From NCBI RefSeq assembly GCF_027595985.1, contig NC_073312.1, positions 4,613,051 through 4,677,050 of the forward strand: a stretch of DNA of 64,000 bases. The letters are read 5' to 3'. The notes beneath the pieces were generated by a model. It saw only the letters and a program-made list of their open reading frames with translations. It did not search any database and was not told the origin of the DNA. A program made the position numbers and the translations under genes. The stretch comes from Sorex araneus. Taxonomy: Eukaryota; Chordata; Mammalia; Eulipotyphla; Soricidae. Shown here one piece after another: positions 33,472-60,479 of the stretch. How positions within the stretch are numbered: the first letter of the stretch is position 1; each line of letters begins with the position of its first letter.

Positions 33472-33568
33472 TCAGCGGGCCGCGTGCTCCAGCAGCAGGT
33501 CCACGGCCTCCGCCAGGTTGTCCACGTGGCCGTCGGCCTTCACCTCCGGGTGCTGCTCGTCGCTGGGC
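33472..33568 (-). CDS. LHPP: LHPP exon 7 (C-terminus and stop)
   Basis: Encodes [20 protein letters not shown] and [11 protein letters not shown], then TGA at 33474-33472. The C-terminal helix matches the human protein apart from a few substitutions. Confidence 0.97.
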
Positions 33569-34512
33569 CTGGGGGCGAGACCAGTGGTCAGTCGGGGACC
33601 CCACGAGACCCTGAAGCCATGCTGGGGGCACCTCACCTCCCCCCTCCTCCCCAGGGCGGCCGCCCGCTGTGGGGCGTCCCCAGGAGTGACCCTGGGCTGG
33701 GGGCGACACGTGGGGAGTGGGTGCCCGCCACCCTCGTTCCCGAGTGTCCGGGTCACCCAGAGGCGGGGGGCCGGGGGCAGAGCCCCCCAGGAGAGTGGCC
33801 GCACCCCAGAGCTGGCCGGCCGGGCAGCCACGTCCAGGTGGCGTCAGGGTGAGGGGCTGTCGCGGGACCCTCCCATCGAGGACTCGCGCTCCCGGAAGGG
33901 CAGCAGGGCCGGCCTGGGCCTTGGGTCCAGCCCCGCACCCCCCCCACCCCGCGCCCTGGGCAGCTCAGGGCCCGGCTCTGGCAGCCGTCCCAGCGCCAGC
34001 GGACCCCCGTCCCGCTGACGCCCGGGGTCACGGCCCTTGTGGGCGTGGCTGGTCCCTGCCTGCCCCAGGGCATCCTGTGGACACTTGGGGACTCGGCCCG
34101 CGAAGCTGGCCTGGGCCGGTCAGCATGTGTGTCGGTCAGCGCATCTGCCTCAGCACGTGGCCTGTCATCACACCGCGCACTGTGCCCGGAGTCTGCTGGC
34201 CCGTGTCCTGCCGTGTGCCCTGTGACACGCGCTGGCCAGTGGCCGGGAGGGTGGGGGCAGCTCTGGAGCGGGCACCCAGCACCCTCGGGCGCGGGAGATG
34301 GGCCAAGTTTCCACCAGGATTGGCACAAACACACAACCACACCTACGCACATACACACTCACCCCCACAGTCGCACAACCACATACACAACTACACACAC
34401 ACACTCATCCTCACAGTCACACATTCACACAACCACACAGTCACAGTTATACAGTCACAACCACAGACACACTCAAAACCACATGTACAACCGCACACAC
34501 TCGTTCTCATAA

Positions 34513-34547
<35 letters not shown>

Positions 34548-37500
34548 CACAGCCACACACGGGCCTGCCCGGGCGGGGTCTCTGCAGGTTCCACCGCAGC
34601 CGCCGTGCAGAGGACGCGGGCGGGCGGGCCCCGAGGGGGCGAGGCGCGGTCAGTGCACCTGGTCAGGAGAGCGGGCGGCGCCTCCCCGCACCCCCACTCC
34701 AGCTGCTTCTGCTGCTGCCCAGCAACCAGGGGGCCTGGCAGTGGGCGGGCAGCGCTGCGGCCACCCCACCCTGTGCTGGCATCTCCGGGGCACAGCCAGG
34801 CACCTGGCCGGGTGCCCGCCCACATGCCTGTGCGCCAGGCCCCTGGAGAGGTCAGTGACTCGGTGGAGAGCCCCTGGGACTCAGACTTCAAAGCAGGTGC
34901 CTCCTCCAGGAAGCCCCCCAGCTTCTCCTCAGAGCACCTCAGGACCCCTAAGCTGACCTGGCCTCCGGCCCCTCTTCAAATGCCCCGGTGCCCCGAGTGT
35001 ATGTGTGTTGTGTATGCCTGTGTGTCTGTCTCTGTGTGTACCTGTGTCTGAGTGTGTGTGCTCTGAGTGCCTGTGTCTGTCTGTGTGTGTCTGTGTGTGC
35101 TGTGTGTGCCTGTGAGTCGGCCTGTGTGGTGTGTCTGTAAGTATGGTCTGTGTGTGCCTGTGTCTGTGTGTGCTGTGTGTCTTTGTGTGCGTGCCTGTCT
35201 GTGTGTCTGTGTGCGGTGTGTGTCTGTGTCTGTGTGTGCCTGTGAGTGTGAGTGTGTGTACTCTGGTCGGGGGGCCCCACTCAGCCAGGTGCTATGCAAC
35301 AGGGGGCCCCTTCCCCCTGCCTGGCCCCGTGGCTCGGCATGCAGTGTGCGGCCATGGTGTGTGCACATGAGGGCGGGCTCAGCTCGCCTCTGCAGACCTC
35401 ACAGGCCAGAGGGTGCTGGGGGGCCGCCCCACCCCAGCCCGCGGCTCAGAGCCCACCCACAGCCCCTTGGGCACCGCCCCGGTCGGCGAGAGCGGGCCTG
35501 AACCCCGCGGCCCTCCATGCCGAGGGAGCTTTCCTGAAAGGCCTTGGCCAGCGGACACCAAGTCAAACAACTGGGTTTGGCAGCTCCGGGAGGCCCAGCC
35601 CTGCCCGCCACTGGCGGCCGAGGCATAAGGAGCCCATTCAGAGCCCGCGAGCAGGCACGGGGGGGGGGGCCCGGGACCCCCGGGTCTGCGCCAAGCACCA
35701 TGCCAGCCACAGGGGGCCTGCGGGAGCAGAGAGCGAACGCCGCCCTGGGCGGGTCACACGTGTGAGGGAGGCGAGGAGAGGGCCGGGGGGTCCCTGGCCC
35801 CCGAGGTGCCCCCAGAGGGTGGTCACCTGAGCCCCGTGGTCGGTGGTCATGCCCCACGTCTGGGCGACCCTGGCCCGGCCCAGGCCGCCTCGCCAAGACT
35901 TTCTGTGTGGGGGACCAGAGCGCCAGAACAGCGGGCAGGGCGTGGGTTCCATCCCGGCTCCCCACAGAGGCACCCTGAGCACTGTCCACCCCGGCCTGCC
36001 CCAGGAGCCGTGTCAGAAGTGACGGCTGGGCTGGAGCGATAGCACAGCGGGGAGGGCGTTTGCCTTGCACGAGACCGACCCGGGTTCGATTCCCAGCATC
36101 CCATATGGTCCCCTGAGCACCGCCAGGACTAATTCCTGAGTGCAGAGCCAGGAGTGACCCCTGAGCATCGCCGGGTGTGACCAAAAAAAAAAAAAGAAGT
36201 GACGGCTGATGAGGCCTCAGTGACGTCTCGGAGCGGCTCCCTCCCTGCTGGCCGGCTCGGGGCCTCCCGGGAGTCCCCGGGCACAGGAGGCAGGCTGGGC
36301 TACCTCTGGACGGCTGCAGGCGGGGCCCGGACACGGCCCCTGGTGGTGGGCACCCCTAGTCCCGCTCCCGCCAGGCATGAGCCCAGGCGAGGGGGGGGCG
36401 CTGCTTCCCCCAGACTCCGGGGGGCCCTGGCGCTGCCCAGCCCGGCCTGAGTGGACAGGCCTGCGGGCACACAGGGACGATGCGGGGGCAGGCCCTTGGC
36501 AGGCCGGGGGCGGGGGGGAGACGCATACCCCACTGTGACCCTCGGGCTCCCACGTCCCTGGGACACGGTCTCGGCCCCGAGCAGGAGACCACCCGGGGGC
36601 CAGAGCTCTGCGCATGGGGCTGGCCCGAGGTGACCCCAAACCTCAGCCTCCTGCTCCGGGAGAGGACTCGGCCCCGCCCCGCGTGCTGTACACTCTGCGG
36701 AGGGGCCCAGAGGCACCAAAGGCACGGGGGTGGGGGGCCCTGGGGTGCTGCGTGGGCAGAGCTGGGGGCCCCGGGGCTGCCATGGCCGCAGCCTGGGCTC
36801 TCGGATGGAGACAGGCCCTGCCCCAGCCCGGCCCGGGTCTGGCCCCAGCAGAAGCTGGAGAGTGCGCCACCTGCTGGCCAGGCGGGGGACACTGCCCAGG
36901 ACCTAGTGGCCGCTTCAGGCCCAGTCCTCGGGCCTCCCTGGGTAGCGGGGTGCGCCACCCCTTGCCTCGTTAGAGTCCTAAGGGCGGGAAGCCCATTTCC
37001 CCCCTCACGTGTACAAGCGTGACCATGTGCACAAGTACACACATGCACGTGTATAATGCACACGTGCGCACACACACGTACATGCAATGGATGACACACA
37101 CATACAGACACATGCACACACGCGTGCACACACATTCACACATGCGCCCACCTGGGTCACCAGGCCCTGCCAGCTTCCGGGTGCAGCCTGCCACCTCCCC
37201 AGCTGCCCCGGCCACCCCGAGCAGGGTCACCCCCGCCCACTCCCCAATTCCGAGACTTCCAAAAGCCACACTGAGCCACGTCCGAGCCGGTGCCACGAAC
37301 CAGCACCAGGAAACTCCTAAAATTCCAGGCCTGGCGTGGTGCCACCACCCGCCCAGGGCCGTGGGGAAGGACCGGCCTGGTCTCTCCAGAGCCCGCTGGG
37401 CCCCGGGCTGTGAGGGCAGCGGCCGAGGCCCAGAGTCAGCCCACAGCCCCTGTCTCCTCCGGACACGCCCGACTCTCGGGCCCGTCCTTCCTCTCCCGTG

Positions 37501-38317
37501 TGGAGGTGCGGGCGGGTCTCGGGGGGCCCAGGCCTGGCCCAGGCTGTGTCTGTATTCAGGTCTCGGGCCTCCCGTGCTGAGGCGCCTCAGCTCCCACTGG
37601 AAGGGCCGAGAGAGACGAGCGTCTGTCGTCCCCCACACAGCCTCCCCAGAGCCCGTGGCGGGGCGCGCCTGCAGGGGGCCTCGCAGCCCCCCGCCGAGAC
37701 CCCCCCGCACGCCCGAGACTGCGGAGGAGAAACAAGCGGAGTCGTGGGGAGGTGTGAGGGCTGGCCCAGGGCTTCTGCCCGATCTTCCCCTACCAGTCTT
37801 TCCAGAAGGTTCCATACTGAGCCAGACACATGTGTCAGGGGCACATTTCCCTGGAGAAGGGGCAGGGCGAGTGAGGGGGCTTCTGCTCCAGAGGGGGCTG
37901 CCTCTGAGGGCAGGGGGCCTGCACAGGCCGGACCCCACCCTCACGGCCCCCCTTGCTGGAGTCAGGCCCGGCAGGGCTGAGCATGCACACACAGGCACAG
38001 GGGTGCAGTCACACACACTCACAAGCAGATACACGCACACATACACACATGTACATACACACGTGCAAACATGCACTTTCACATACAGTGCTCCCACACA
38101 TTCGCCACTGTGTATGCACCACTCATATGTGTTCGCGTAATGCATACATGTGCACATACATGTATATACGCAAGCACCCTCGCGCTCACATTCATGTAGG
38201 CATTCATACGTGTGCACAATGTTCGTGTGCATGCAGGCACTGGACAAGCCCCTCATAGTAGACTCACGGACACAGCACTCGCACACGCACACACACACAC
38301 CACACGCACACACACAC

Positions 38318-38349
<32 letters not shown>

Positions 38350-39191
38350 CGCACACACCACCGCAGGCCCTGGCACTCGAGCACGCACACATCACACACA
38401 CATACACACACACCACCGAATGCCCTGGCCGCCTGTGGGCAGATGCAGAGGCCTCGCCCTCGGGGGTCCCTGGGGCGTCCTTCCAGCTGCATCCGGCCGT
38501 GGGCAGAGTCCAGCCATGTCTCTGAGCCCGTCCCCAGGAGGGCAGCTGGGGTGTCTGGGCAGGCCCAGTAGCTGCAAATGGCTCTGGACGCGACAGGGCT
38601 GTCCAGCAGTCCAGGCGCAAGAGGGCCTCAGCCCCGAGTGCCTTGCAGACACGCTGGGCCTGGGTCTGGCCACACACCGCGGGCAGGGTCCTCGGACACG
38701 GGAGGGGAAGCCCCCGGCCACGGTCGCGTGCACTGTGGTGACGGAGCCACACCCGACTGTGCCCAGGGGTCACTCCCAGCGGGACTCGGAGGGATGGGGG
38801 ATGGGCACCAGACCAGGCGAGCACCGCCCACCTCGTGTGGAGTGTGTCCACGCCGTGTACCCGAGACAGCACCGAGGGCCCCCAAATGTCCTCACGTGGA
38901 GCCTCCCTGCGGGGCCGCCGCTCCCCATCCCTGTGCCCGCTCTCCCTGCGTTCCCAAGTGACCATGCCGCATTGGGTCTGGGCTGGACAGAGCAGCGAGC
39001 AGGCCAGCGCGGGTGCCAGCCTGGTTCCCTCTTGGCCGAGGGACTGAGAGCTGCAGCCACGTCAGTGAAGAGCCCAGGGCAGGGCTGGCCGGAGCACGCA
39101 GCCGGGCAGGCCCACACGTGTATCAGCAGGGAAACGTGCAGCAGGGAAGAGGCAGGGACGTCGCCCAGCATGGCACTTCGATCCCCAGGGT

Positions 39192-39222
<31 letters not shown>

Positions 39223-42200
39223 GCGCGCGCGCGGACACACAACAGACACACATGCACACACGGTGAACATAACACACACAAATACCAACATGCACCCACG
39301 GTGGCATAATTTATATACTACACCAACCAGCAAACCAGAGTGATAGCACAGCGGGGAGGGTGTTTGCCTTGCACGCGGCTGATCTGGGTTCGATTCCTCT
39401 GTCCCTCTCGGAACCCGGCAAGCTACCAAGAGTATCCCACCCACATGGTAGAGCCTGGCAAGCTCCCCGTGGTGTATTCGATATGCCAAACACAGTAACA
39501 ACAAGTCTCACAATGGAGACGTTACTGGTGCCCGCTCGAGCAGATCTATGAGCAACGGGACGGCAGTGCGACACCAACCGGAGTCATACCTGCACCCAGG
39601 GGGCTGCCAGGGTGAAGCTTCCTCTCGCTCTGAATGACCAGCCTGGGGGGTCAAGCACCCCAGGGTCAGCGGGGCAGGCTGCGAGAGGCTGGGCATGGTC
39701 CTGCGCCCAGCGGAGGGTGGGAGACGCGCCCCTCAGCTGCCCCTGCAGGGAAGGGCCCCCCGCGCCCCCAGGCGGGCAGCTCGCACCCTCCTTCCAGGCG
39801 TGGGAAGATCCAGGGAGCCTCGCCCACCAGACCGCCAGCCTCTGCCAGGGACCCCCGACTCGGCACCTCAGCCTGGGCTCCCGGTGCAGGAGCCCAACGG
39901 CCCCTCCCGGCCTGCGGGCAGCCCCGTGCCCAGGACCCCCCGCCAGCTGGGTGCTGTGGCCCACTCTCCGGTGAGAGAGCGTGCACGGCCCACCAGGGCG
40001 GGGAAGGACAGACTCACACCCGCCACCCAGCCCTCTGCGCCTGGTTCTGCCCCCAACCCGGGCCGAGCACCGAGCGGGTGTGCCGGCGTCTCCCCCCAGA
40101 GGCTGGGCCCTGCCCCTCCCTCACGGATGCAGGTGGGGGAGGGGCAGCCAGAACCAGTCCGGGGGGAGCACCTCGGGCTCTAAGGGGAGCACCCCAGGGG
40201 ACCCTGGTCAGGACGGGCGGCCAAGGGGTCCGGGAGCCCTGGGCAGCGAGGAGGGCCCAGGGTGGCCAGGCGTGAGGCGGGGAGACCCAGGCGGGCCCCC
40301 AGGCCCCTCCCGGCTCTGTCCCCCGGGGCTCCCCCCACCCCGACAGGCGCCCACTGGGGGCTGCGGGGAGACCCACAGGGCGGGCTGCTGGGGGGGACGC
40401 GGCGAGCGCGAGGGTTCCGGCCAGTGCTCATTACGGCGCCTTAATTAGCTGCGAGCCCGTTGATGTATGGATTATATTAGGTGCGTAATTGTAATTACCC
40501 TAGCAGGCATATGGATCCCAATTACGCCCCAATTAAACCCCCAGCGCAGGGCGCACAGAGCAGCCCTCGGGCCGGGGTTCTGAAAGCTGAGGGGCCCTAG
40601 GAAGCACTGGCCTGCCGGGAGGCCCCGGGGCAGGGCAGGGCAGGGGAGGGGAGGGGAGGGCGCTCACAGGGCCCCAGGCCTGCTCCCTCTGCCCCTTAGG
40701 GCAGGCCCCTGGGGGTCGCCCCCAGCCAGGCTGCAGGACCCGGCCGAGCCCGGGAGCTGCAGGAAGGACGGGGCAGTCAGCAGGCAGGGGCTGGGACAGG
40801 GGCGGGGGCGGCGCCAGGGAGGAGCCGGGGCGGTGGGTGTGTCTGAGGCCCTTAGGACCCTCGGGACTCAGTGTGGGGGTGACTGGGGTCAGGTGGTGCC
40901 AGGCCCCCTGCCAGCCTATCTGCAGCCCAGAAATGACCCTGGGGCCACCCTAAGGTGCCTCGGGACCCCCGGCCTCGCCCTTTCCAGGCCTCCCCCCAGT
41001 CCCCGCCCCCTCTGCCCTGAACTCAGCTAAAGCCAGACTGGGCCCCCAGACCCTGGCTGGCCGCGCCCCACTCCTGCAGGCCCGGGTCAGGCCACGCGCC
41101 GAGGGTGCCATCTGCAGGGAGCAAAGGGCAGTGCAGGCCCCGCGACCAACGGAGGAACCTGCTAGAACGTTCCAGGGGGGCACCCGCAGAGCACAGGGGC
41201 ACCAAGGGCGGGGCCTGGCGTTTCCGAGGTCAGACTGGGCTGTGACCTCCGTGACCCCGGCAGGGCCCCCACGAAGAGACCTCGGGAGGGGTGCGTCCTC
41301 TCCCACGCCCCAAAGTGAACTTCCGTCCGCAGAACCCGCAGCCCAGGAGGGCCAAGGCCCAGGCGCCAGGTGCCGTGGCCGGACTCTGCTCGGGCCTGGA
41401 CAAAGGGAAGTGGCCACCCACACGGCCCGTGTCTGCAAAAGGACCCGCGTGATCGGGCAACGCGTGCCCAGACCCGCCTGCCCACAGGGGACTGGCCAGC
41501 CCGGGGGGGTGCCTCAAGGGAGTCAGCCCAGGGCCCCCAGAACCAGCAGCAGCACCGGCCACACCTCCTGGGCCCACACAAGCAGGTGCCAGGAGGGGGC
41601 GTCACCCCCAGGACACTGAGCCAGGCCCAGGTCAGGCCACTCGGGGTACACTCGGGGTGCGGGGGAGGACGAGGGCCGGGCTGCCCCGCGTGGAGGACCG
41701 AGCCTGGGGGCATCTCCCCGCTGGGACCAACAGCGCTGGGAGCCGGGGAGCAGGCACGGGGTCTCCGGACCACCCGGGGGCTTCCTGGCGCAGCCACTTC
41801 CTGCTCGCCCCCACCCACGTCCAGACCTCCGACCCCGGCCCTGGCCAGGAGAGGGGGTCGGGTGGGGGCAGACGGCTCGGCGGGCAGCGCTGGACCCCAG
41901 CCGCATGCCAGCCAGGCCCGCCGGCACCAAGCACGGCAGCCCGGGACGACGCAGACGGTGCGGCCAGAGGGTCCCGAGGCCGCGTCCCCACGGCCAGGAG
42001 CCCCCGCGCCAGCCAGCACGCCCGCAGGCCTGGCATCTCCCCAGCCCGGGTCTGTGCTCCGGCAGGACAGCGGGCGCCCGCCCCGTGTCCCCACAGGGCT
42101 GGGCCGTGGGGTTGCCCGCGCCCAGGACCCGCCGTGCCTGGCTCACCTGAACTTGCCCGTGCGCACCTGCAGGGCCCGCATGCCGCAGCGCTGGGCACCG

Positions 42201-45200
42201 CCCACGTCGCCCACGATGTCGTCTCCGATCATGACGGCCTGGCAGGAGCAACGGTGGGACCCGTGAGGAATAGAGGCATGACGGGCTGGAGCGACGGCAC
42301 AGCGGGGAGGGCACCTGCCTGGCACGCGGCCGACCCGGGTTCCATCCCTGGCACCACACACGGTTCCCCGAGCCCACCAGGAGTGATCCCTGAGTGCAGA
42401 GCCAGGAACAAGCCCTGAGCACTGCCGGGTGTGGCTGCCATCGGGGGCTGTGCACACGGATGCTCACTCTTGGGTGCTCACTGGGGACGCGAAGGAGGTG
42501 AGGCTTCCTGGAGGAGGTGAAGTTTGCAGCTTGTATCTGAGGCATGAGGGGTACCCCAAAGGGGGTGCACTGGACAGAGAGCACGCTGGCCATGCACTGA
42601 CCCTCCAGCCCCCAGCTGCCGGGTGCCCCTGAGTGGCACAGTGCCCGTGGGCCCGTGGCGGGTGCTGGCCATGAGCCCCAACAAGCTTTACTTTTTTTTT
42701 GCTTTTTGGGTCGCACCCAGCGATGCTCAGGGGTTACTCCTGGCTCTGCACTCAGGAATTACCCCTGGCGGTGCTCAGGGGACCATATGGGATGCTGGGA
42801 ATCGAACCCGGGCCGGCCGCGTGCAAGGCAAATGCCCTCCCCGCTGTGCTATCGCTCCAGCCCCACAAGCTTTACTTTTGCTCGTTCGGTGACCCTGAAA
42901 CCGTTAGCTTTGGAACATTCCCAGGTTCCAACCCAGACCCCATCCGTGGGCACCAAGGGCTCTGAGGCCATTTTGCTAGAAGGTTCCTTGGACATGAAAT
43001 GGGTCCCCCGGCCCCCATGAGATCATGTGGCATTCATTCCAAGCTCCAGGGAAAAGAAAATTGTGTGCATGCACATATGTGTGCGCATGTGTGTACAGGT
43101 GTGTATGTGTGCACATGCAAAGGTGTTTTGTGTGTACACAGGTTTGTGCATGTATGAGTAGGTGCACTTGTGTTGTGTGCACAGGTGTGCTGTTTGTGTG
43201 TTCTGTGTGTACACGGATGTGCGCATGTGTTTTATGTGTGCAGGTGTGTAAGTGCACAGGTCTGTGTGTGTAGGTGTGTCTGCACAGGCGTGTGTATGTG
43301 TGTTTTGTGTGCATAGCCATGTATGTGCATCACCCCCACCCCGCCGGGAATCGGGGTCGCGGTGGGACAGGGTCGGGCAGCCCAAGACCGGGCCGGGGAA
43401 GGACAGCAGCTGTGGTTCTGCATGAAGGGCCGGTGGCGGCCGCGGCGAGGCCGTCTGGCGGCGTTTGCTCCGCATACCAAGCGGCTGCGGGCCCCAGGGG
43501 AGCGCACGCATTTACTGTCGGTGAAGGGCAATAACCAGGCAAGGAGGAGCAATTATTGCCGAATCATTTAGGATTTAAAAAATCATTGGCAAGAAGATAG
43601 AGGTCAAGAGGGCGCTGTCGGGGGAAATAAAACGCCCCACCTGTCAGCCTGGGCTCCGCGTCCCCGAGCGGCAGGGGTGAGGCGGGCTGCAGAGCGCCGG
43701 AGCAGAGCCGCAGCCCTGCGAGCCGGTTCTGGGTGCAGGCAGGGCCCCAGGCTCAGCGGAGCCCCGAGTCCACAGTGCTCAGGGGTGGGGGGAGCACGGC
43801 CGCGGCCCTGGAACTTTCCCGGAGTGCCTAAAGTCTCGGGGGTTCTGGGGCTGGAGCGATAGCACAGCGGGTAGGGCGTTTGCCTTGCACGCGGCCGACC
43901 CGGGTTCTAATCCCAGCATCCCATATGGTCCCCTGAGCACCGCCAGGGGTAATTCCTGAGTGAAGAGCCAGGAGTAACCCCTGTGCATCGCCAGGTGTGA
44001 CCCAAAAAGCAAAAAAAAATAAAAATAAAAAAAATAAAGTCTTGGGGGTTCTGGGAACTCGGACTCAGTCTCCCTCTCACCGGCAGCTACGGGGGAGTCA
44101 GGAGCAGAGGGTATAGGTCGATATTCTTTTCTTTTTTTTTTTTTTTTTTGGCTTTTTGGGTCACACCCAGCAATGCTCAGGGGTTACTCCTGGCTCTGCA
44201 CTCAGGAATTACTCCTGGCGGCCCTCGGGGGACCATATGGGATGCTGGGAATCGAACCTGGGTCGGCTGTATGGAAGGCAAACACCCTCCTCGCTGTGCT
44301 AGCGCTCTGGCCCTAGGTCGGTATTCTGACCCTGGGAGCAGCTGGCGCCAGTTTCAGCCTGCAGGCTCCAGCCGTGCGTGCGATCCCCAGCACCGTCTGC
44401 AGGGGGCACTCCCGAGCACAGAGTCAGGTGTGGCCCCCAAGTTAAAAACCAAGTAAAATTTAAAAAAAAGAAAAAATGGAAATAGCTCTAAGGAGAAAAT
44501 GTTTCAGGAAAAGGAAGAGATGAGTGTTTCCTGCAAGAATTGTCCCAGCGGGGCCGGAACGATAGGACAGCAGGGAGGGCGTCTGCTGACCCAAGTTCAA
44601 TCCCCAGCATCCCATGTGGTACCCCAGGCACCGCCAGGAGTGATTCCTGATGCAGAGCCAGGAGTAACTCCTGAGCACTGCCGGTGTGACCCAAAAGGGA
44701 AAAAAGAGAAGAGAAGAAAAGAAAAGAAAAGAAAAGAAAAGGAAAAGAAAAGAAAAGAGGGGCTGGAGTGATAGCACAGCGGGTAGGGCGTTTGCCTTGC
44801 ACGCGGCCAACCCGGGTTCGATTCCCAGTATCCCATATGGTTCCCCGAGCGCTTCCGGGAGTGGTTCCTGAGTGTAGAGCCAGGAGTAACCCCTGTGCAT
44901 CGCCGGGTGTGACCCAAAAAGCAGGAATAAAAAGGAAAAGAAAAGAAAAGAAAGGAAGAGAAAAGAAGAGAAAAGAAAAGAAAGGAAGAGAAAAGAAGAG
45001 AAAAGAAAAGAAAAATAAAAAAACCTTCCCGTGGGCGGCAGGAGCCCAGGGCAGCCTGGGAGTGAGCACAGCTGGGGCCGGGCCCGGCAGTGAGAGCGGA
45101 GCGAGGGGCCCCCAACAGCCCCCGCGTGGACGCCCATCCCCACCCGAAGTTTCCAGACTGGGCATGTCCCTGCAGCCAGAGTCCCGCCCTGGGCAGCAGA

Positions 45201-48200
45201 GCCTGGCGACTCCGCTGAGGACGCGTGTCCACGCCCGTCCACGCCTGTCCACTCTAAGCACAGACCTCGCCCGGCCCCTCAGGTCTGAGCTCTTTATCTT
45301 TTAGGCCACCCCCCGCAGTGCTCAGGGCTTACTCCCGACTCTGTGCTCAGGGCTTGCTCCTGGCAGGCTCGGGGGCCTGATGGGCTGCTGGGGACCCAAC
45401 CGGGTCAGAGCACACGCGGCCAGCACCCTCCCCGCTGCGTCACTGCTGCGGGCCCTCAGCACCTAGTCCTATCCCAGGCACTGACCACTGACCACTGCTA
45501 CTGAAGCACTGACCACTTCCGCCTGCCTGTGTCGCAGGGGTCCCTCCCCTGTCTGAACCTCTGCCCTGCCCCAACACCACCTCCAGTGGAGGCCCCCAGG
45601 GAGGCCCAGAGCCCAGCGGGTGAGACAGACCCCCACATGGTACTAGAGGGGCCGGGAGGGGGTCGAAGCTGGCGACCCCCTGCAGCCCCGTGAGGTCCCC
45701 GGGGATCACTGAGTCACATCCTCAGCCTTCTCGGATCCTCGGAATGTTCCACAGTAAAAAGGTGTTTTGAGGGGCCGGAGCGATAGCACAGCGGGGAGGG
45801 CGTTTGCCTTGCATGCAGCCGACCCGGGTTCGATTCCCAGCATCCCGTAGGGTCCCCCGAGCACCGCCAGGAGTAATTCCTGAGTGCAGAGCCAGGAGTG
45901 ACCCCTGGGCATCACCGGGTGTGACCCAAAAAGCAAAAAAAAAAAAAAAAAAAAAAAAAGGGTGTTTTGAATTGGGGGCTGGGGGAGAGCCGGAAGGGCG
46001 GCACTCACGGCTCATGCTCGAAATGCCAGTTCAGGGCCCAGCCGGGCTGCGCCCCCCCCACCCCCCGCCCCCCACACACAGTCACACTGCGGTGGCCCTG
46101 CTCGAGCACTGCCGACCACCCTGGGCCCAGCACTGGGGAGCCCCTGCCAAAATGCGATGCTTTGTGATTTACTGGAGGGGAGGGTCACACCCAGCTGTGC
46201 GCAGGGCTGACTCCGGGCCCTGTGCTCAGGGGCCTCTCCTGGCGCTGCCCAGGGAGCATCCGGGTGGCTGTGTGGGAGGCAGGTACCGCCCCACTGACCC
46301 AGGAAGAGCTTCTCAGTCCGCAGACTGCCCACGCCTGGCTCCCACGGGCACTGCCCGCCCCACCCAGGCTCCAGGGTGTCCCCACTCCCGGCAACCCCCC
46401 CCCCCGCCCTGCCTGCTCACCTGGTGGGCCCCGACGCCCAGCTCCCGCAGGGCCAGCTGGAAGAACTCGGGCGACGGCTTCCCCACCACGTGGGCGCTGA
46501 TGCCGCAGGCGTACTGCGGAGAGGAGACGGGTGTGGGCTGCCCGCCAGGAGGCCCCGCCCCCACGTGGACAGCTGGACCGGGGGCATCAGGTACAGATGC
46601 CGTCGAGACCCACCCGGGGGCCGCCCGGGACACCCCTCGGGCCCCTCCACAGTGCCCCTCCCACCCCCAACCGTCAGGGGCGCTCCCGGAGGGAGGCAAG
46701 GTGGCATCTGCCATTCCTCCGCCTGACTGGGGGGGCAAGAACCTGGGGGCCCCACCCCAGAGGAGGGTCCGGGGGTGCCGGAAGGCCTGGTCGCAGACAG
46801 AAGCGGCCACAGAGCTGGGGGCCAGGCCGCGGGGGGGGCAGGAGGCGGGCGGCCCGGCACACACGCTTGCCCTCCCCCACGCCCCTCGGCTCCAGGGCGG
46901 ACCCGGCGGTACCTCGAGTGCCCTCATGTAGGCCCCCACGTCCAGCATCAGCCCCGACGTCTCCTTGTAGTAGCGGCTGCAAGAGGAGGAGGGCAGTGAG
47001 CTGGCCAAGGGCCGGGAGCCGAGTCTGGCCACCAGGCCGCCTGGGTGGGCGGCAACGGACCCCCCCCCCCGCCGCTGCCACGATGGACGGGACCCTGGGG
47101 CCGGGGGACCCAGTGGCCTGTGTCCCGGGCAGGACAGCAGGTGCACGTGCTAAGGACCCACCTGACTGTCACCCCAGAAAGCACCTTCGCTCCGGAGTGC
47201 CCGCCAGCCCGGGGCCGCGAGGTGACAGCTGGCCCGGGCACCCGGGGCTCTCCCGCCGGGAGCAGAGAGGGCAGAGGGGAGCCCGGCTGCACCCATCCCG
47301 GCCCAGTGCAGCCACTGAAGAAGCTGCTTTCCTCGTTCTCTGTTTCCAAGCGGGTGGTCTTGCCTGCGACCTCGGTGGGGACGGGGAGGGGCGGCAGAGC
47401 CCAGCGACCCCGGGATGGAGGGGAAGGGGGGAACGAGTCGCACAGGGGGCTGTGGTCCTGACTGGGGGAAGCAGAGCTGCCCTCAGCTCAGCCATGCCAG
47501 GCACCTGGGCATCATTCCAATCTGTAAAATGGCCACCGAACACACACACACAGACATACGCACGCACACACACACAGACACACATAGACACACACAGACA
47601 CAAAGACACATGCACAGACACAGATACACACTCAGATACACAGACACACTCAAACACACAGACACACACAGATATACACACAGACATACACACTCACACA
47701 GACACACATAGACACACACAGACACAAAGACACATGCACAGACACACTCAGAGACACAGATACACACTCAGATACAGACACAGACACACTCAAACACACA
47801 GACACACACAGACATACACACAGAGGCACAGACACACACAGATACACACTCACACAGACACACACACAAAGACACATGCAGACACACTCAGACACAGATA
47901 CACACTCAGATACAGACAGACACAGACACATTCAGACACACACAGACACACACACACACACACACACACACACGGGCCCTTCCTCCTGAGGGGACCGGCA
48001 TGTGGCTGCGGGGAATGCCCTGGGCACTCACCCCCTGGCACCTCTCTGCATTCCCCGCGGCCCCCACGCTCCCAGGAAGGACTCCTGTGGGAGTTGTGGG
48101 TGTCCCCCGCAGGGACGGGTGCGTGGGCCTCAGAGGGGACCCCAAAAGGATAGGGGCCAGTGGACACCGCTCAGCAGGAAACCAGGTGATAGGCCACGTG

Positions 48201-51200
48201 GCCTAAGCCGGGGCCTGCAAGTGCGCCCCCATTCAGATAGGCTGAGCTCATGCACGACACCGGCCTCAGGCCTGGAATAAAGACAGGAACCCGCATTCAT
48301 CCCAACATCCCTCCCGCATCCCCCCGCATCCCCCCGCATCCCTCTGCATCCCTCCCCACATCCATCTCGCATCCCTCCGCATCCCTCCCAGCATCCATCC
48401 CGCATCCCTCCCACATCCATCCCCGCATCCCTCCCTACAGCATCCTGCATCCCTCCCACATCCCTCCCGCATCCCCCCCGCATCCCTCCCTCAGCCATCC
48501 TGCATCTCGCCTGCATCCCTCCCCACATCTCTCCCTGCCTCCATCCTGCCTCCATCCCCGCATCCCTCCTGATGCTCGCACACCCCCGCAGCCCGCAGCC
48601 CTGGGTCCTGAGCACTTCCTCCTGAGTCACTCAGGGGACGAGGCGGTCTCCCTCACCAAGCCAAGTGTCAAGAAGGTGGGAGTGGCGACCGCAGGCAGTG
48701 GGGACAGGGGCAGGGGAGTCGTGCAGGCTCGGGGGTGAACCGCCCACTCCCCTGTGCAGGACTGGGCACCCCGACTCAGGCTGGGGGGAGCAGGAGAGCG
48801 CAGAGTCCCCGAGCAGGGCAGCATGGGAGGTGAGCAGCCCAGGCCTGCGCCCCACCTGCGGGGGCAAACGGGGGGCCAGGAGGGGGTCCCCGAGAAGGAA
48901 CGGCACCTGGGAGCTGCAGGGGAGGGCGCCCCGTGGAGGGGGAGGGGACAAGCTCAGGCCGGCGGCCTCCTGCTCCCCGTCAGAGGGGAACCAGGGGCGC
49001 CAAGCTGGCAGTGGGTGCTGGGGGGCCTCTCGGGCGGTACATGGGGAGGGGCTGGGACACAGGGCAAACTCTGCTGCGACCTGGGTTCCAGCTGTGCCAC
49101 CCCTTGGGGTCCCCTGAGCACCGCCAGGAGTGACCCCCAAGCACAGAGCCAGGAGTCGGCCCTGCGAGTTGCGGAAAGCAACCACCCAAAGCCCGGGGCA
49201 GCGCCACCTGGCTGTCCCGACTCAGTGCCGCCCGCACTGGGCTGTCCAGCTGGGACAGGCGCAGGAGGGGGGCTGGCCGCTGCCCCTCTCCCGGGCTCCT
49301 GTCCGTTCCTGGGGGTCCCGGGGGAAAGGGTGGCTCTGCCCGCAGCAACGCCCCCCTGCACGCATCCCCTTTGCTCCGTTTCTCCCTCCGGGGAGCGAGG
49401 CAGCACGTGGCGGTCAGCTGCTTGCTGGGAGCGTCACTGAGCCACGGGCAGGGCCAGCACCGCCCGAGTCCCGGGGAAGACCCGCTCGGCCCAAGGGGGT
49501 GTTCGGGGGGTGGGGGGGCTCATCAGACGGGGACGGGGACGGGGAGACGCAGTCAGAGAGATTTTCTGCCTCCTTCTCCGGCCCCTTCCGGTAATTCCGC
49601 CGGCTCCTTCCAAATGACCACTTGCCCTTTCCCACAGAGCCATTAACCTTCCTGAGTCTGCCGCGTAAACAGCTTAATTTCCTGACAGCCGCATGACAGA
49701 AGAAATTACAAAGGCAATTCCCACTCTCGGCCCCAGCAGATGCCAAATGTAAATCATCCCATCCCCGAGGAGCACGCGGCACCCAGCCGACCGGCCTGAC
49801 GCCCCCCCCCACTCGCACCAGGCCTGGGACCCAGGGCCGGAAGCAGCTGGGTCCCCTCTCTGGTTTCTGACTGCCCCAACCTGGCCCATGCCTGAGCCCC
49901 CCACCCGCGCACACCTCCTCTTCACCAGGGTGCAGGAAGACAGAGCTAAAAGCTAAAAGCTGGGGCTGGAGCGATAGCGCAGCGGGGAGGGCGTTTGCCT
50001 TGCATGCGGCCAACCCGGGTTCGATTCCCAGCATCCCATAGGGTCCCCTGAGCACTGCCAGGGGTAATTCCTGAGTGCAGAGTTAGGAGTAACCCCTGTG
50101 CATCGCCGGGTGTGACCCAAAAAGCAAAAAAATAAAATAAATAAATAAAAGCCAAAAGCTTAGTGGGGCCTTTTCTTCTCTTTCTCTCCAGCAAACCTAC
50201 CTGAACCCCGGCCCGGGATCGGGAATAATCCGAGACAGTTTCCAAGGGAGAGAAAGTGTGGGGCGGGGGTGATGGCTCAAAGGGCCGGAGAGAGCTCAGG
50301 GGTCAGACCTGAGTGGTCTCAGCAACAGGCCAGCAGTGATGAGCAGGAAACCCCCTGCGGCCCCCCCAAAGAGAGAAAGTCTGCACAGAAATGGGTTAGG
50401 ACAGAGACCCCCAAGCAGGGAGCCCTGGGCGGGGGAGACAGCGCAGGGCCCAGTATCTGCCTCCTATGCAGCCGACTCCCCCGCATGGCACACGGGCCCT
50501 TGCGCCCCGCCAGGAATAATCCTGAGCACAGAGCCAAGAGCACTGCTAGGCGCCTCCGGGTCGGGCCCCAAAACCGGGAACAGGAGTAGGGCCGACCCTG
50601 GTGGGGGATTCGTGCTATTGTGTCCAGAACTCAACTACCAGGAACCCTGTAAACCAGGTTCTTTAAATTAAAAACACTTATTTTTAAAAAGGAGGTAGGG
50701 GCAGGAGAGTAACAGAATGGGTAAGGGGCTCGCCCGGTGCCCTCCAGAGTGAGCCCTGAGCACTGGGGGGGGAGTCCCCAGGAAAGGAGGCAGCTGCTGG
50801 CGGGGACAGTGAGGCCAGCTGGCGTCTGGACTGCCGGTGGCGGGGCGGAAAGGCACGGAAACCCTTTTGGGGGGGCCACACCCGGCGATGCGCGGGGCTC
50901 ACTCCTGGGAATCGAACTCGGCCCCAAGGGCGGCGAGCGCCCTGCTGGCTGTGCCATCTCTCTGCCCCCAACGCAGTGCGACTCTTTTTCCTTTGGGGTC
51001 ACACCCAGCGATGCTCAGCGGGTCCTCCTGGCTCTGCACTCAGGAGTTACTCCTGGCGGTGCTCCGGGGACTATACGGGATGCTGGGGATCGAACCCGGG
51101 TTGGCCGTGTGCAAGTACAGCCCAACCTGCTATGCTACCGCTGCAGCCCCTGCACTGCGACTCTGAAGTGCCCGTGTCCCCTGGCAAGGCCCAGGTGCCC

Positions 51201-52927
51201 AGCTCACCCGGTCCCCCTCACCCGGTCCCATATCACCCCATCCCCCCTCACCCCATCCCATGTCACCCCATCCCCCTCACCCCATCCCCCCACCCCCATC
51301 CCATGTCACCCGGTCCCCCCTCACCCGGTCCCCCCTCACCCAATCCCCCTCACCCCAACCCCCCTCACCCCGCCCCCCTCACCCCGTCCCCACTCACCCG
51401 GTCCCCAGCGAGATGAGCAGGGGCTCCTGAAGTGCCATCAGCACCTGGAAGGCCGCGTTCATGTTGCGGTAGGAGAAATCGTCCCCCGCGTCCCCGAGCA
51501 CCACGCAGTTGGGGTTGGACGTGTCGATCCCGTCAAACTCGGAGCGGATGCCTGCAGGAGAGGGTGGGGAGTCCCAGGCTGGCCCCCACAGTCCCGGGAC
51601 CCAGCCCCCAGCTGGCCCTCTTGTCAGGAGGGACGGGGGCTGGGGCCATTTTTATAACAGGGGCCACACCTGCGGGGGCTGGGACCCAGGGCTGGGCTTT
51701 GGGCCTCTCACGCCTGTGCTCTGCCCTGGGACACGCCAGTCTCTCAGCGTCTCCCAGCCGGAGCCTGAGGTCCCCCCTGAGAGGACTTGGGAAGAGAGAG
51801 ATGCCCCCAAAGCAGCAGCTGGAGCACCAGAGCCAGGAGTCCCTTAGCCCAACGCCTCGGGTGGGGACCCTAACGCTGCATCGGGAGGTGACGTCTGTCT
51901 GCAGGTCCCTGCTGGCCCTGAGCTGCAGGAACCAGACACAGGTCAGCAACCCCCGGGACAGGTCAACAGCACGCACACACGCTGGCACATGTGCGCACAC
52001 ACACATGCACGCACCTGAACACATACACACTGCTAGCACATACACACGTGGACGCACACACAGACCTGCATGCACACACACAGAGCACACACACACATGC
52101 ATGCATGCACCTGAACACATACACACTGCTAGCACATACACACGTGGACGCACACACAGACCTGCATGCACACACACAGAGCACACACACACGCATGCAT
52201 TCTAAGGACACAGGTACACATATGCATACTTATAAACACAATCACAATGCACACTCGTGCACACAGGCCCTACACTCACGTATGGTGACAGAGCACACGT
52301 GTACACACATACATGCCAAACGTACATGTGTGTGCACAGACGCCTGCACCCAGAGAGCACAGCAGCCTCTCTCCCCGCCGGGGTGACCTCGGGGAGGGGA
52401 GCAGGGGAGCCTGAGTCCAGGCCCTGCTCTCTCCCTCTCTCCACCCCGCCCCCTCGGTCCATGTTGGGGCCACACCCAGCTGCGGGGTCCATATGGGATG
52501 CCGGAGATCAAACCTAGACGGCCACGTGCAAGGGCCCTCCCCGCTGCCCTCCCCCGGCCCCGCTGCATTCTGACCAGGCGGGGCCCCTGAGGGCCGCTCC
52601 CGCGGGGGTGGGCGGAGGACAGACCCCCGTGCCGGGCTGGGAGGCGAAAGCACGAGGGACAGAGAAGCAGGAGTCGCTCCTCGTTAGGATGCAGAAGGCG
52701 CCTTCCAGAGACGTGCGGAGCGAGGGTCAAAGGGGCGTCTGGCACCCAGACTCATCCCAGGGCGTAAGCGGGTCGCAGTGGCCCGCACTGATGGAGGTCA
52801 GGCGCAGCGTGGGGGCACGAGAAACCTGCGGTCTTCACGATCACACACGCACGCGCACACACATATGCACATGCACACATGGACACAGCTCCACACGCAG
52901 GACTCCAGAATCCCGCAGCGCTGAGTA

Positions 52928-52966
<39 letters not shown>

Positions 52967-55900
52967 GGACACGATATTCCTGCAGCACTCAGTATCAGGT
53001 ACACACACATGCGCGCGCACACGCATACACATATACACACACTATACATATTCCCGCAGCACACTATCACATGCACAAAGCACACACACATGCGCACACA
53101 CGTGCACACACGCATACACGTACACACACACACTAGACATATTCCCGCAGCACACTATCACGTGCACAAAGCACACGCACACAAGCACATGCACACACGC
53201 ACACACATGCATGCACACATAGGACATCAGAATCCTGCGGCGCTCAGTATCAGACAACACACAGGCACACACGCACACGCGGGGTACGATATCCAGTGAT
53301 ATTCCTGCAGCACTCAGCATCACGTGCACATACACATGCGTATGCGTACACACACTCACACACACACACACACACAGTGTGTGTGGACCTCTGGACCTGA
53401 CTGGGGCGCCCGGGCATGGGGGCAGGCGTGGCCCTGTCCCCCGGGAGCCCACAGCAGCGGCCGGCGTCCCCACAGAGGCACCGCCCGGGCCCGGCCACCC
53501 CCACCCCGACGGGCCTGCAGCCCGGCTCACCGTCGTGGACGAGCAGGTGTGGGCGCAGGCTCCGCTCCCGCAGGAGCTGGCGGGCGGCCGGGGCGGGCGC
53601 GGTCACCTCCTCCTCGCTGACGTCGAAGCCCAGGGCCCGCAGCTGCCGCACCAGGGCCTCCCGTGTCTTCTGCGACTCATTGGTGCAGAACCGCACCCTC
53701 AGTCCCGACTGCTTCAGCCTGCGGGGAGAGGCCCGGCCCTCAGCGCCGGCCACGCGGGCCCACGCCCTGCTGCCCACCCCCTCGCCCGCCCCCGCAGCCC
53801 CCGCAACCTGGCTACGGTGCGGCCCAGCCCGGCTTCACCGCCTGAGGCCCGGCCCGGACGCCCGAGTGTCTGTCCGTCAGCCGGACACAGCCCCGACGGA
53901 CACACACGTCACTGAGCTCCACTGGGCGCGGCCCCACGCAGCCCCCTCCCCTGCCGCCTTGCTGCCCCCCGGAGCACCGGGGAACCGGGGAGCCCCTCAG
54001 GGCCAGGGCACAGCACCCCGCCTGCCACTGCCCTCCCCTCCCGCCTCTGCAGGGCGCGAGCCACCCCCCACTACAGGCGCGCTTCCTGGGCCCATGTGAG
54101 GTCAGGAAGGGGGTCTGCGGGGTCTCCGCACCCCCAGGCTCCCTGCACCGCGGACCCCCAAATGACGACAGGTCGGAGGGCCCCTGCTCGCCCACGCGGG
54201 TGTCCCAAGGGGGCCAGCAGAGAGCCAGGACGTGGGTGGGGGGGAAACAAACAATTCCCCTCGCTGCCCAGAGAGGCAGGTTCGGGGTCCGCCCGCGGAG
54301 CCGTAGTATTTGTCTTTCCCGGCCAGGGGCCCATGAATTATCAATTACGCCCAGTGGTTAATTGCCCTTCATAAAGGCGGCCTCGGCTGTGGAATTAGGC
54401 AGTTAATACGTCGTAACTAATGGCGCCCTGTTCTCCCTGCTCTCGGCAGCGGGGGGCCGGGAAGGTGCGAGTCGGACCCAAGTTAATGGGCAGCTGCGTA
54501 AAGAAGGGGTGGGCGCCGGGGACTAATTACCGCTAACGGATGGCGCTGTGACCTTCGCAGAACAGCGAGCAGGCCCCGCGGGGACTCGGGCCGCCCATCT
54601 GCGCCACCACCCGTCGGGGGAGCGACAGTCTCCGACAGAGCCGCCGCTGGACGTGCCGCCCGCCGGACAGCAGGAGAGGGCCGCCGGGCCGGGGCCCGAG
54701 CGTGGGGGGCCGTCGTCCGTCCACGCCCCCGAAAGGCTCAGAAACGTCACCACGATTCCGACCGAGCACTGGAGACGAAGAGTCCTGGCTGAGCACTTAA
54801 ACGGTGGGGCGGCCCCTGGGATCTAAGCCCCACCTCCTGGGGAAGGCCGGTGCTGCCCCTCAGAGCCACAACCCCACACCCCTGCCCCCGACGGGAACCA
54901 AAACATGACCTCCCCGCCTGGTGGTCTCATCTCTGCCCTGCGGAAGGGGCTTGGGGCGTCTGTCCCGCTTCCCCCTGTGAGCAGCTGAGGCAGGAACCGG
55001 GGTGCTGGGGCAGGGCAGGAGCACAGCGGGGAGGGCGCTGACCCTCCCTGCCTGGCCCGGGACATCCCGTGGGGTCCCCCGAGCACCGCCAGGAGTGGCT
55101 CCGGGGAGCAGAGCCAGGAGGAAGCCCTCCCTGAGCATCATGGGCGGGGAGAGTCCCCCTAAAAGCAAAAAGGGAAAGAACCAGGGGGGCTCGGGGGAGC
55201 AGAGGCGCCACCCCAATGTCCCACAGCCCGAGCCTCTGCCCGCCCGCGGGGCTGTGCCCAGGCCCGGCCACCAGCAGGCGGGGCAGCTGGCCCAGGAACG
55301 CAGGCGCTCTGCTCAGGGTCCGTCCTGCAGGCAGGGAAGGCCACACTGACCACGGCCAGCGTCTGTGTGTGTGGGCGGGCGGGGGGCACAGGGTATCGGG
55401 GGCCCCTGCACTCGGGACAGAGGCAGAGAGTGAGGCACCGGGCTAAGGGGCCACTCCCGGGCTGAACTGGACGCCCGCGTCCTTCTCTGGGGGGACGCCC
55501 TGGTGATGGCTGACCAGGCCACTCTGGGGACTGAACCCGGGTCTCCCGCATGCAGGGTGGACGGCCCGGCTCTCTGAGCCACTCCCCGGCCTGTCCCCCG
55601 CGCTCTGTTCAAGTCTGAGGCGGACAAACTGGAGATGGGGCCTAAGTGGCCGGTCTGGGGGACGGGCCCAGCGGTGCTCAGGTCTGACTTCCGGCTCTGT
55701 GCTCAGGGATCACCCCTGGAGGGGCTTGGAGGACCGTATGCGGTGCCGGGACTCGAACCCGGGCCTTGCTCTGCTCGGTCTCCCGCCCGAGATGGTCTGA
55801 GAAGGCGCTGGCTGTTCAGTGGGTCTCAGGGGAGGGCCTGAGGACAGTGCCTGCCCACCAAGGGACACCGGTCCTGCCCTGTGGGACACAGTGACCAGCA

Positions 55901-58900
55901 GCCACCCAGAGGTCCGGCTGCGAGACCTCAGTGGAGGGGCGGGGGCTGCCAGCGTGGGCTTGGGCCCTTCCCCGCTGCCCTGCGCGGGCCACTGGCAGGC
56001 GTCTCCGGAGCTGCCCGAGTGCCGGGAAAGCCTGAGCTGGCTGGGCCCCAGGGGCGGCCCTGGGGCAAGTCCAGGGTTCCCGGCCCGGGAGGCCCAAAGC
56101 AGGAGTGTCGGCTTGTCCCGGGACACCCCGAACCAGAGCAGGGCTCCGGCTAGACAGACCCAGTTCCTGCCACCAGCACACGGGGCCTACTTCCCGCACC
56201 CCCACCCACCTCCCGCACCCCCCACCCACCTCCCGCACCCCTCCCCGGGACCCACTTCCCGCACCCCCCACCCACTTCCCGCACCCCCCACCCACTTCCC
56301 GCACCCCTCCCCAAGGGCCCTACTTCCCATACCCCTCCCCGGGACCCACTTCCAGTACCCCTCCCCGGGGGCCCACTTCCCGCACCCCAACCCACCTCCC
56401 GCACCCCTCCCCAGGACCCACCTCCCACACCCCTCCCTGGGGACCCACTTCCCGCACCCCTCCCCGGGACCCACCTCCCGCACCCCTCCCCGGGACCCAC
56501 TTCCCGCACCCCTCCCCGGGACCCACTTCCCGCACCCCTCCCAGGACCCACTTCCCGCACCCCTCCCAGGACCCACTTCCCCCACCCCTCCCCGGGGATC
56601 CACTTCCTGAACCCCTCCCCGGGGGCCCACTTCCCGCCTTCCTTCCCGCACCCCTCCCGGGACCCACTTCCCGCACCCCTCCCCAGGACCCACTCCCTGC
56701 GGCCCGCTAGGTCTCTGAACTGACCTTCACCCGCGAGGACAGAGCGGCCGGCCGGCTCTGAGTGACGGGGACGCCGTGGCGTGTGGACCGTCACTTGCAA
56801 ATCACTTCGGACCTCACACATCTGCTGGCTGTCGGCAGCTGCCAGGGGCGCTCACCCGAAAATAATGGGCACCTTCCTCTCGGGCGGGAGGCGGGAGAGC
56901 GGGGACGGCCGCTGGACATCCTGGGTGACCTTGGCCAGCCTGAGCCGGCCGCCCTCCCGGCTCCCTGTCCAGGGAACCCAGTGTCCCCCCCACCCCAGGC
57001 TCCCTCTTCTCCCCACTCGCCCCACCCCCAGGCAGGCCCAGGCCCTCTTGGTGCCTACGTCCCCTCCTCCAGGGAGACCCCCAGGCATCCTCCTCCCACT
57101 GGCCAACCCAGCCTGGAGGCTGCTCCGCGCCGGCCTGCAGTGAGTGCTCCCCCCTCCTGCACCGCCCAGCCCACCTGCCCAGTGACCAGCAGAGACTCGG
57201 TTTACCAGCCGTGCCCCTGCCCACCACCTCCAGTCTGGGCGTGAGGCGGTTTGTGGGTGGGTCACAGGCAGAGGCGGGGCTCAGGACCCCAGGGCAGTGC
57301 ACGGGGCCACACCGCGGGACGTGAGTGAGCAGGACCCTCCTTGCTGCCCCCCGGAGGCCACGTGTGACAGGAAGGAGGAGGCAGGTGCCTGGGACAGGCC
57401 GGGGCCCCCCCATCCCGCAGGGCTGCAGTGGCACCCAGGGGGCCTCTGGGCGATGGCCTGGTCCCACCCCCGCCACGGCCCACGTGCTCTGGGGTCCCCA
57501 AGAGGAGCGGGGTGGGGGCGCCTCTGTCTGAAGGGAGTCCGTGAGCACTGTCCCGGGGGCAGGAGGAGGCCAGGCTGACCCCAACCTCCTGAAACAGGCC
57601 GGACACCCACACAGACACACACAGACTCACACTCACAGACATGCACACACAGGCTCACGGAGATACACAATCTCACAGGCACAAACACACTTAGATACAC
57701 AATCACACACAGACACACCACAAGCACAGGCAGACTCGCACGCAGAGATACACAATCACACACAGAAGCACTCACATACCAAGACGCACAATCCCACTCA
57801 CAGACACACGTGAACTGAGACAATCACACACACAGACACACAGACACACGCCACAAACACACACTCAGTGCCCCGGGGGCTGCGGCAGGAGGCAGGACAT
57901 TCGGACTATCCCCTGGGCCCTGGGGGGTCGCCTGGAAGGCTGAGCCGAGCCTGTCCTGGGGCCAGAGTGGACAGACGCTGAGGGCTGGCCCCGGGTTACA
58001 GAGTGGACAGACGCTGAGGGCTGGCCCCTGGTTAGAGTGGACACTGAGGGCTGGCCCCGGGTTACAGAGTGGGCACTGAGGGCTGGCCCCGGGTTAGAGT
58101 GGACACTGAGGGCTGGCCCCGGGTTATAGAGTGGACAGACATGAGGGCTGGCCCCGGGTTACAGAGTGGACACTGAGGGCTGGCCCCGGGTTATAGAGTG
58201 GACACTGAGGGCTGGCCCTGGGTTAGAGTGGACAGACGCTGAGCGGGCACTGTGGCCGGGGCGGGACCTGAGGCCTGGGGGAGGGGGTGGGAATTGCTTT
58301 ATGGGGCCGCCTGCCGGGCCTCCCTCCTTCCTTCCTTCCTCCCGTCCTTCCAGCTTCCTTCCCAGATGGGCTTCAGTGACCCCAGGATGCAGTAAAAGTC
58401 GCCTTTCACATGCGGATGTCCCCGGCTGGCCTTTGTGCTGCCTCCCAGGGCCACCCCGGCCTCCTCTGAATGGCCCCTGGGAGCTCAGCTGTCCCGGCTC
58501 CCATAAAGGGCCCGAGGGGTCCTGATGACCCTGGCCGCACCCCCCGGGAACTGAGAGTGGCCCCAGCTCCCGCAGCCCAGCCCAGGAAGTCACGTGGGCC
58601 CTCCGCAGACCCCTCCCCCTCCTGCTCCCGCTCACCCCGAGGACGGCCAGCTCCCAAGGTGTCCCGCTTGCCACTGGACAGCCCGAGGGCACCCCCCCAT
58701 TGGACAGCCCGAGGGCACCCCACCAGCCACTGGACAGCCCGAGGGTGCCCATCTGTCATTGGACGGTGGCTAGGGGCCCCCACCTGTCAGTGGATGGTCC
58801 CTGGGGTCCTACCTGTCACTGGACAGTCCCTGCCAGTGAGATCTTTTATGTATTTGACCCGGGCCGGGAATGCTAAACCAGACAGGCCTCAAGGAGGCTC

Positions 58901-60441
58901 AGGGCAGTGAGTGGCTTCCCCGGACGCCCCCTCACCCCCCATGCGGCCTCTCGTGCCCCGCACCCCCTCGCGCCCACTCCGCTGCTCCGTGACCTGTCCC
59001 CCTCTGCACTTAAGGCTCTGTGGCTGGGGGCTGGAGCGATAGCACAGCGGGGAGGGCATCTGCCTTGCACGTGAGCGACCTGGGTTCGATTCCCAGCATC
59101 CCATATGGTCCCTGAGCACCGCCAGGGGTGATTCCTGAGTGCAGAGCCAGGAGTAACCCCTGTGCAACGCCGCGTGTGACCCAAAAAGAAAAAAAACAAA
59201 AAAACAAACAAACAAACAAACAAAGACTGTGGCTGATTTCCAGATCTTCCTACCAATGGCCCCTTAACCGTTGGGGGGTCCCCGGGGACGTCCCAGTGAT
59301 GCTTGGCCTGAGGACTGGGCCCGCAGCAGCCGTGCCGCACCCCTAAGGCCTCAAGGACACGTGACACGGGTGGGGGCCCCGGCTGGGCCTCCTGATGTCC
59401 ACTTCGAGGCTGCAGGGGCACCGGGACGCTGAGGTGCTGGCCCGGGTGCGGGAGGCCGGGCACTGCGCAAACAAGAGAAAATCTGCCCTGGGGGGCCGGA
59501 TACAGCAGGTGGGCGCCCGCCCTGCATGTGGCTGCCCCCCTTCCAGCCCCCCTTCCGGTCTCCTGAGCCCACCGGGAGTGACCCCTGAGCACGGCCAGGC
59601 ATGCCCCCCGCCCCCAAAACAAAACACAAACTTCATTCGCTACTTCCATGGTTCCAGTATCTGTGTCTCGGTGTCACATCTGACCTTAGCGTCCGCAGCA
59701 GCTCAAGGGGGTGGGCGCAGCCACAAGGGACCACCCTCCGCCCCGTCGTCAGCAGACCCAGGGCCGCGAGAGGCGTGCCCCCAAATTAGGAACTAGAATA
59801 ATTCGGAGCAGAGCACCAGCGCAGTGGGGAGGGCGCCTGCCTCATACTGGCTGACCCCGGCTGGGTCCCCGGCACCCAGAGGGCTCCCTGAATGCCGGGC
59901 CAGGAGTAAGCCCCCACCTACCCCGAAGAAACTCCACTAACCTTTGTGATGATCGATTTGCTCAAGCGGGCACCAGTAACATCTCCATCGTGAGACTTGT
60001 TACTGTTTTTGGCATATCAAATGCGCCACGGGGAGCTTGCCAGGCTCTGCCTTGGGGGCGGGATACTCTCGGTAGCTTGTCGGGCTCTCCGAGAGGGATG
60101 GAGGAATCGAACCCGGGTCTGGCGTGTGCAAGGCAAACGCCCTACCCGCTGTGCTATCGCAAAATTTCTTTTGTTTTTGCTTTTTGGGTTACACCCAGCA
60201 ATGCTCAGGGATTACTCCTGGTGGTGCTTGGGGGACCCTATGGGATGCTGGAAATCGAACCCAGGTCCACCGCTTGCCAGGCAAGCGCCCTTCCTGTTGT
60301 GCTATCTCTCCAGCCCCCAAAATAAAATTTCTTGGCCCCAATCATCTAACGGCTCTGCTGCCTCCAACGGAGGCCCCTGGCCGTGCGCCTCTCATCTGCC
60401 TCCCCCCCTTGAGCTACTGGGCCCCCCAGGTGCCTGCCCAG

Positions 60442-60479
<38 letters not shown>

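Follow-up and report, generated by a model that had tools for sequence, protein, structure and literature searches.

The coding region of LHPP lies entirely on the minus strand of the window (33472..62453), by which we mean the whole 64-kb stretch of Sorex araneus DNA that was analysed, and is divided among seven exons. When exons 1 (62453-62329), 2 (53718-53531), 3 (51398..51551), 4 (46913..46976), 5 (46513-46421), 6 (42238-42147) and 7 (33568-33472) are joined, they give an 813-nt open frame whose 270-aa product matches the Sorex araneus record for LHPP (P0001) at every residue. Exon 3 (154 nt) was placed both by this joined frame and by a PDB search, in which its translation matched human LHPP (2x4d, E 2.6e-21). 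Its 52-residue piece had no Pfam match and is too short for that result to be judged. The exon ends in ...GGG ACC GG, in phase 2, and its normal splice partner, exon 4, opens at GCAG^C CGC TAC with a first base that completes Gly156. The joined frame thus bears out the gene, the shrew assignment, the exon 3 border and the phase given in the original prediction. Because this frame is intact and its product equals the Sorex araneus LHPP record, we ruled out the reading of exon 3 as part of a broken gene. LHPP is not mentioned in the main text of the two shrew papers that we searched.

Among the six donors of the gene, that of exon 4 (minus strand, 46907-46915, GAG^GTACCG) is poor, with a score of −1.02 under a matrix of human donor frequencies and a U1 duplex energy of −5.7 kcal/mol. 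It is the weakest of the six, yet it is used in the recorded shrew protein.

A minisatellite across the end of exon 3

The minus-strand minisatellite at 51203..51406 consists of 14 units of 13-16 nt, as delimited by TRF (period 15, 13.9 copies) and by our unit list, with the consensus GGGGAYSGGGTGAGG (our own). Unit 1 is formed by the final 9 nt of LHPP exon 3 followed by GTGAGT, and the border on the minus strand reads GGGGACCGG|GTGAGT. This unit holds the true donor, CGG^GTGAGT (51392..51400, GT at 51397-51396), and is the only one with T at position +6. Cutting the remaining units at their GT gives 13 decoy donors on the same strand (51202..51382). Nine of these 13 further units retain GTGAG (51382, 51368, 51353, 51339, 51324, 51280, 51251, 51221 and 51207), two read GTGAC (51309 and 51266), one GTGAT (51236) and one GTGGG (51293). 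The complete ACCGG^GTGAG context occurs at three decoys (51324, 51221 and 51207). Distances from one GT to the next are 15 nt in seven cases, 14 nt in four, and 16 and 13 nt in one case each.

The original prediction had counted nine GTGAG sites, three GTGAC or GTGAT variants and three sites with the full ACCGG^GTGAG context, and the unit list reproduces these counts exactly. All twelve predicted decoys are present, but the unit carrying GTGGG at 51293 had been missed. Similarly, the exon 3 border is indeed repeated as had been proposed, but the array also takes in nine exonic bases (to 51406), and its spacings are 13-16 rather than 14-15 nt.

The array is not a chance clustering of short motifs. 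It holds 10 copies of GGTGAG in 210 nt, while every other 210-nt stretch of the window contains at most one on either strand, and 2000 first-order simulations of the array's neighbourhood gave a mean of 0.18 copies and a maximum of 2. Identity within the array is 0.80 at a lag of 73 nt, which equals five units and indicates that the array also grew in larger blocks. The initial 200 nt of intron 3 contain 27 G-runs. RNA folding with G-quadruplexes allowed gave a very low energy, a result that proves nothing about splicing. No Rfam family matched within the window at its gathering score.

Just downstream of the array lies an interspersed repeat (50985-51150), and blastn with it as query yielded another 35 matches across the window (E up to 1e-3); we take this repeat to resemble a tRNA-derived shrew SINE.

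Donor strength and the consequence of decoy use

We scored all sites with a donor matrix of human frequencies and with U1 duplex energies. A comparison of this kind had been suggested together with the original prediction, and the true donor comes first by both measures. Its matrix score is 6.18, followed by 4.98 for the decoys at 51324 and 51221, 4.91 for the one at 51207 and at most 3.94 for the other ten. By the same matrix, the three best decoys rank within about the top 0.6% of all 6638 GT sites on the two strands of the window and thus look like real sites. The energies depend on the context considered: with 11 nt the true donor pairs at −12.6 kcal/mol and the best decoy at −10.9, but with 9 nt the values are −11.2 and −10.9, a gap of only 0.3 kcal/mol. 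The share of U1 binding that would fall to decoys at a naive equilibrium is 18% in the first case and 68% in the second; like the matrix and the duplex energies, this equilibrium is a weak model that leaves out exon definition. Thus the true donor scores best, and its margin depends on the model. Its edge is the T at +6, and no decoy equals it because none carries this base.

Any transcript extending beyond the true donor would meet a TGA at once (minus strand, 51394..51396). Translation of the predicted transcripts for all 13 decoys ends after residue 156, at the same GGG TGA that had been predicted. Lys189 and Asp214, which we take to be catalytic, lie beyond this stop and would be lost, again as predicted. 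In the 13 transcripts the stop stands 260-435 nt upstream of the last junction, and a stop that far before the last junction is the usual condition for nonsense-mediated decay. Since the stop lies within the first four bases of intron 3, plain retention of the intron must end the protein at the same residue, and we therefore rejected the idea that the truncation is peculiar to decoys. Skipping of exon 4 would, by computation, shift the frame and lead to a stop after residue 189.

A 157-residue python record terminates at the position that corresponds to the shrew stop. A truncated 156-aa shrew form was not found among the best 120 of 249 protein matches to the 156-residue form; this says little, because decayed transcripts are not expected among protein records.

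Origin of the array and the codon for residue 155

Tandem repeats are abundant in the window, covering 8.8% of its 64 kb as compared with 2.3% of 20 control pieces of 10 kb (199,534 called bases in all, from chosen round positions along four contigs), although this contrast may simply follow base composition, since the window is 68% GC and the control pieces 34-52%. Further large minisatellites lie at 25618-26513, 56189-56697 and 57974-58237, in keeping with a repeat- and GC-rich stretch. When exon borders were shifted circularly 20,000 times, 44% of the shifts placed at least one of the six donors within an array (P = 0.44), and 61% placed at least one of the 12 exon borders there. Given this abundance of tandem repeats, an array over a donor is unremarkable here, and we rejected the view that its position is surprising in itself. 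In any array that extends over a donor, all units necessarily start out as copies of that donor.

Similar repeats exist elsewhere in the genome. A 401-nt query gave at least 83 matches in Sorex araneus, including itself and many that overlap; this is a lower bound, since 40 of 42 first-look candidates were scored. The four other places that we inspected were all arrays with repeated GGTGAG. One of them, 3 kb long (L009:2849-5824; G000:C6:168667348-168670323), repeats a unit of 13-14 nt, CTGGGTGAGGGGGA, about 223 times, and the core of this unit is identical to that of the LHPP array. Because GGTGAG arrays occur at other places, the repeat may not have begun at the LHPP donor, and an origin of the array from that donor, as proposed in the original prediction, is unproven.

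The final complete codon of exon 3 (ACC, residue 155) lies inside the repeat unit. Across 169 aligned proteins, residue 155 is K in 116, R in 36, N in 5, M in 4, S in 3, Q in 2 and T in 3. These proteins combine the best 120 of 741 and the best 120 of 249 matches, which overlap and include isoforms, and they do not represent 169 independent species. Threonine is found only in the three shrew-type proteins, those of Sorex araneus and Sorex fumeus and the protein P0003, and in none of the 166 others fetched. P0003 groups with Sorex with support of 100/97 in a tree of 22 proteins over the first 225 residues, in which the bootstrap had not settled. Only two of 270 alignment columns (155 and 185) hold a residue that the three shrew-type proteins have in common and that none of the other 166 has, the second being His185, encoded by exon 5.

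These patterns bear on whether the minisatellite arose within the intron, or as an independent GGTGAG minisatellite, and reached the exon end only later, with slippage or conversion turning codon 155 from Lys/Arg into Thr (ACC). Such a history would account for a threonine that lies inside the unit and is confined to the three shrew-type proteins. It would also agree with the arrays found elsewhere, as in the roughly 223 copies at L009, where three forward frames through the preceding 2.85 kb gave no Pfam match, and with the summed distance of each unit to the others, which is smallest for the first decoy (28) and larger for the exon unit (39). Against this, the order of events is unreadable from one genome and ACC may equally predate the array; site 155 is only loosely constrained, since N, M, S and Q occur there in other animals; and a short exon can escape a Pfam scan of read-through frames. 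The ACC GG ending may have been in place in the shrew exon before the repeat arose, or ACC may have been forced on the exon by the repeat; neither order is proven. On balance we regard an origin in the intron or from an independent repeat as possible but rather doubtful. A stronger version seems unlikely, namely that repeat turnover rewrote the last codon of exon 3 from Lys/Arg to Thr while selection kept the +6 T in one unit alone, so that the true donor stayed ahead of its copies. If true, a change of an exon's coding end by repeat turnover would represent a route by which non-coding repeats can edit proteins.

A probably tolerated array and its known relatives

The explanation that we favour, with a probability of roughly 0.62, is that the array is a tolerated minisatellite across the LHPP exon 3/intron 3 border that would cause a small unproductive splicing leak at slight cost and would not be a regulatory device. 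In shrews, a G-rich minisatellite would have expanded over this border, the probable mechanism being slippage or unequal exchange at the G-rich donor; blocks of five units (73 nt) would have been added later. The true donor should yield most transcripts, because it has the best U1 pairing and adjoins a defined exon. Runs of G in introns function as splicing enhancers, and the 27 near the start of intron 3 would work as ordinary elements of this type. A small part of transcripts would leak to decoys, most likely a few per cent or so if the value measured for ABCA7 is a guide, and would then be cleared by nonsense-mediated decay. Nevertheless, the actual leakage could be large, given that the energy gap in the 9-nt context is only 0.3 kcal/mol and that decoys take 68% of binding there.

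The relative P0003 is a full-length protein of 270 aa that also has Thr155, and the contigs from which it derives are no longer than 1222 nt. With contigs this short, the source is very probably either an mRNA that has been spliced, with exon 3 joined to exon 4, or a processed copy of such an mRNA.

The original prediction had also suggested that the array may dilute or buffer donor choice, which is unproven. A related idea is that the array works as a dimmer, in which copy number sets the number of U1-binding decoys that compete with the true donor and hence what fraction of LHPP transcripts is lost to decay. The shared early stop of all 13 decoys, 260-435 nt before the last junction, and the small energy margin of the true donor would suit such a device, but T at +6 is found in none of the 13 decoys and GTGAG has been lost from four of them. 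Moreover, in ABCA7 neither the one-unit decoy event nor decay tracked array length (PMC5954066). We therefore consider a dimmer very improbable. An error of assembly in copy number or unit order is a still fainter prospect, for although GC-rich tandem repeats are commonly misassembled, the contig is continuous over 59.7 Mb, the window contains no N, and many units differ from their neighbours and so do not form a simple run of identical copies.

The shrew array offers, in another lineage beside human ABCA7 and CBS, a natural experiment on how the splicing machinery chooses among many near-copies of a donor in a row. Its interest lies in the shrew-type Thr155 inside the unit and in a question that is answerable from existing shrew RNA reads.

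Arrays of related kinds are known from other genes. The C. elegans repeat CeRep25B is a minisatellite that is statistically linked to splicing (PMC4039745) and the variable number tandem repeat (VNTR) of ABCA7 intron 18 is one whose first two nucleotides are the canonical donor of exon 18 (PMC5954066). CeRep25B resembles the shrew array in lying within introns, but in the passages that deal with it there it is not described as a copy of a splice donor (PMC4039745). The ABCA7 repeat is closer: both it and the shrew LHPP array are GC-rich intronic minisatellites that include the GT of the upstream exon's donor. The ABCA7 unit is 25 bp long and polymorphic at about 12 to 427 copies, whereas the one shrew assembly has 14 units of 13-16 nt. 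According to the same ABCA7 study, a cryptic donor one repeat unit downstream, which adds 25 bp, is in use and gives an out-of-frame product subject to decay; frameshift isoforms amounted to 14 ± 6 and 2 ± 1%, the 2% being taken as the one-unit decoy, and were unaffected by VNTR length; and a longer VNTR went with skipping of exon 19 and lower expression (PMC5954066). Donor arrays are thus not always harmless, since with longer ABCA7 arrays the mRNA level is lower and the following exon is skipped more often. The two cases differ in that shrew LHPP has a stop directly at the border, while in ABCA7 the effects are next-exon skipping linked to length and lower expression.

The 31-bp VNTR of CBS, written c.1444_1467+7(16_21), has a unit of 24 exonic and 7 intronic bases (PMC2630376). 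By these coordinates its unit spans the splice donor, as in shrew LHPP, and CBS repeats the donor 16-21 times. The CBS unit is longer than the shrew unit, and its VNTR is human and polymorphic. From the title of a 2001 study by Lievers, the CBS VNTR is reportedly tied to reduced CBS activity. In the 844ins68 allele of the same gene, a 68-bp piece containing the intron 7/exon 8 junction is doubled and the more distal copy is reported to be strongly favoured (PMC2630376), so the original site need not win. Since the ABCA7 and CBS VNTRs vary, variation of copy number in shrews, as originally predicted, is plausible by analogy only. The shrew array as called by TRF covers the donor at 51397, and it belongs to the already known kind of donor-spanning minisatellite represented by ABCA7 and CBS.
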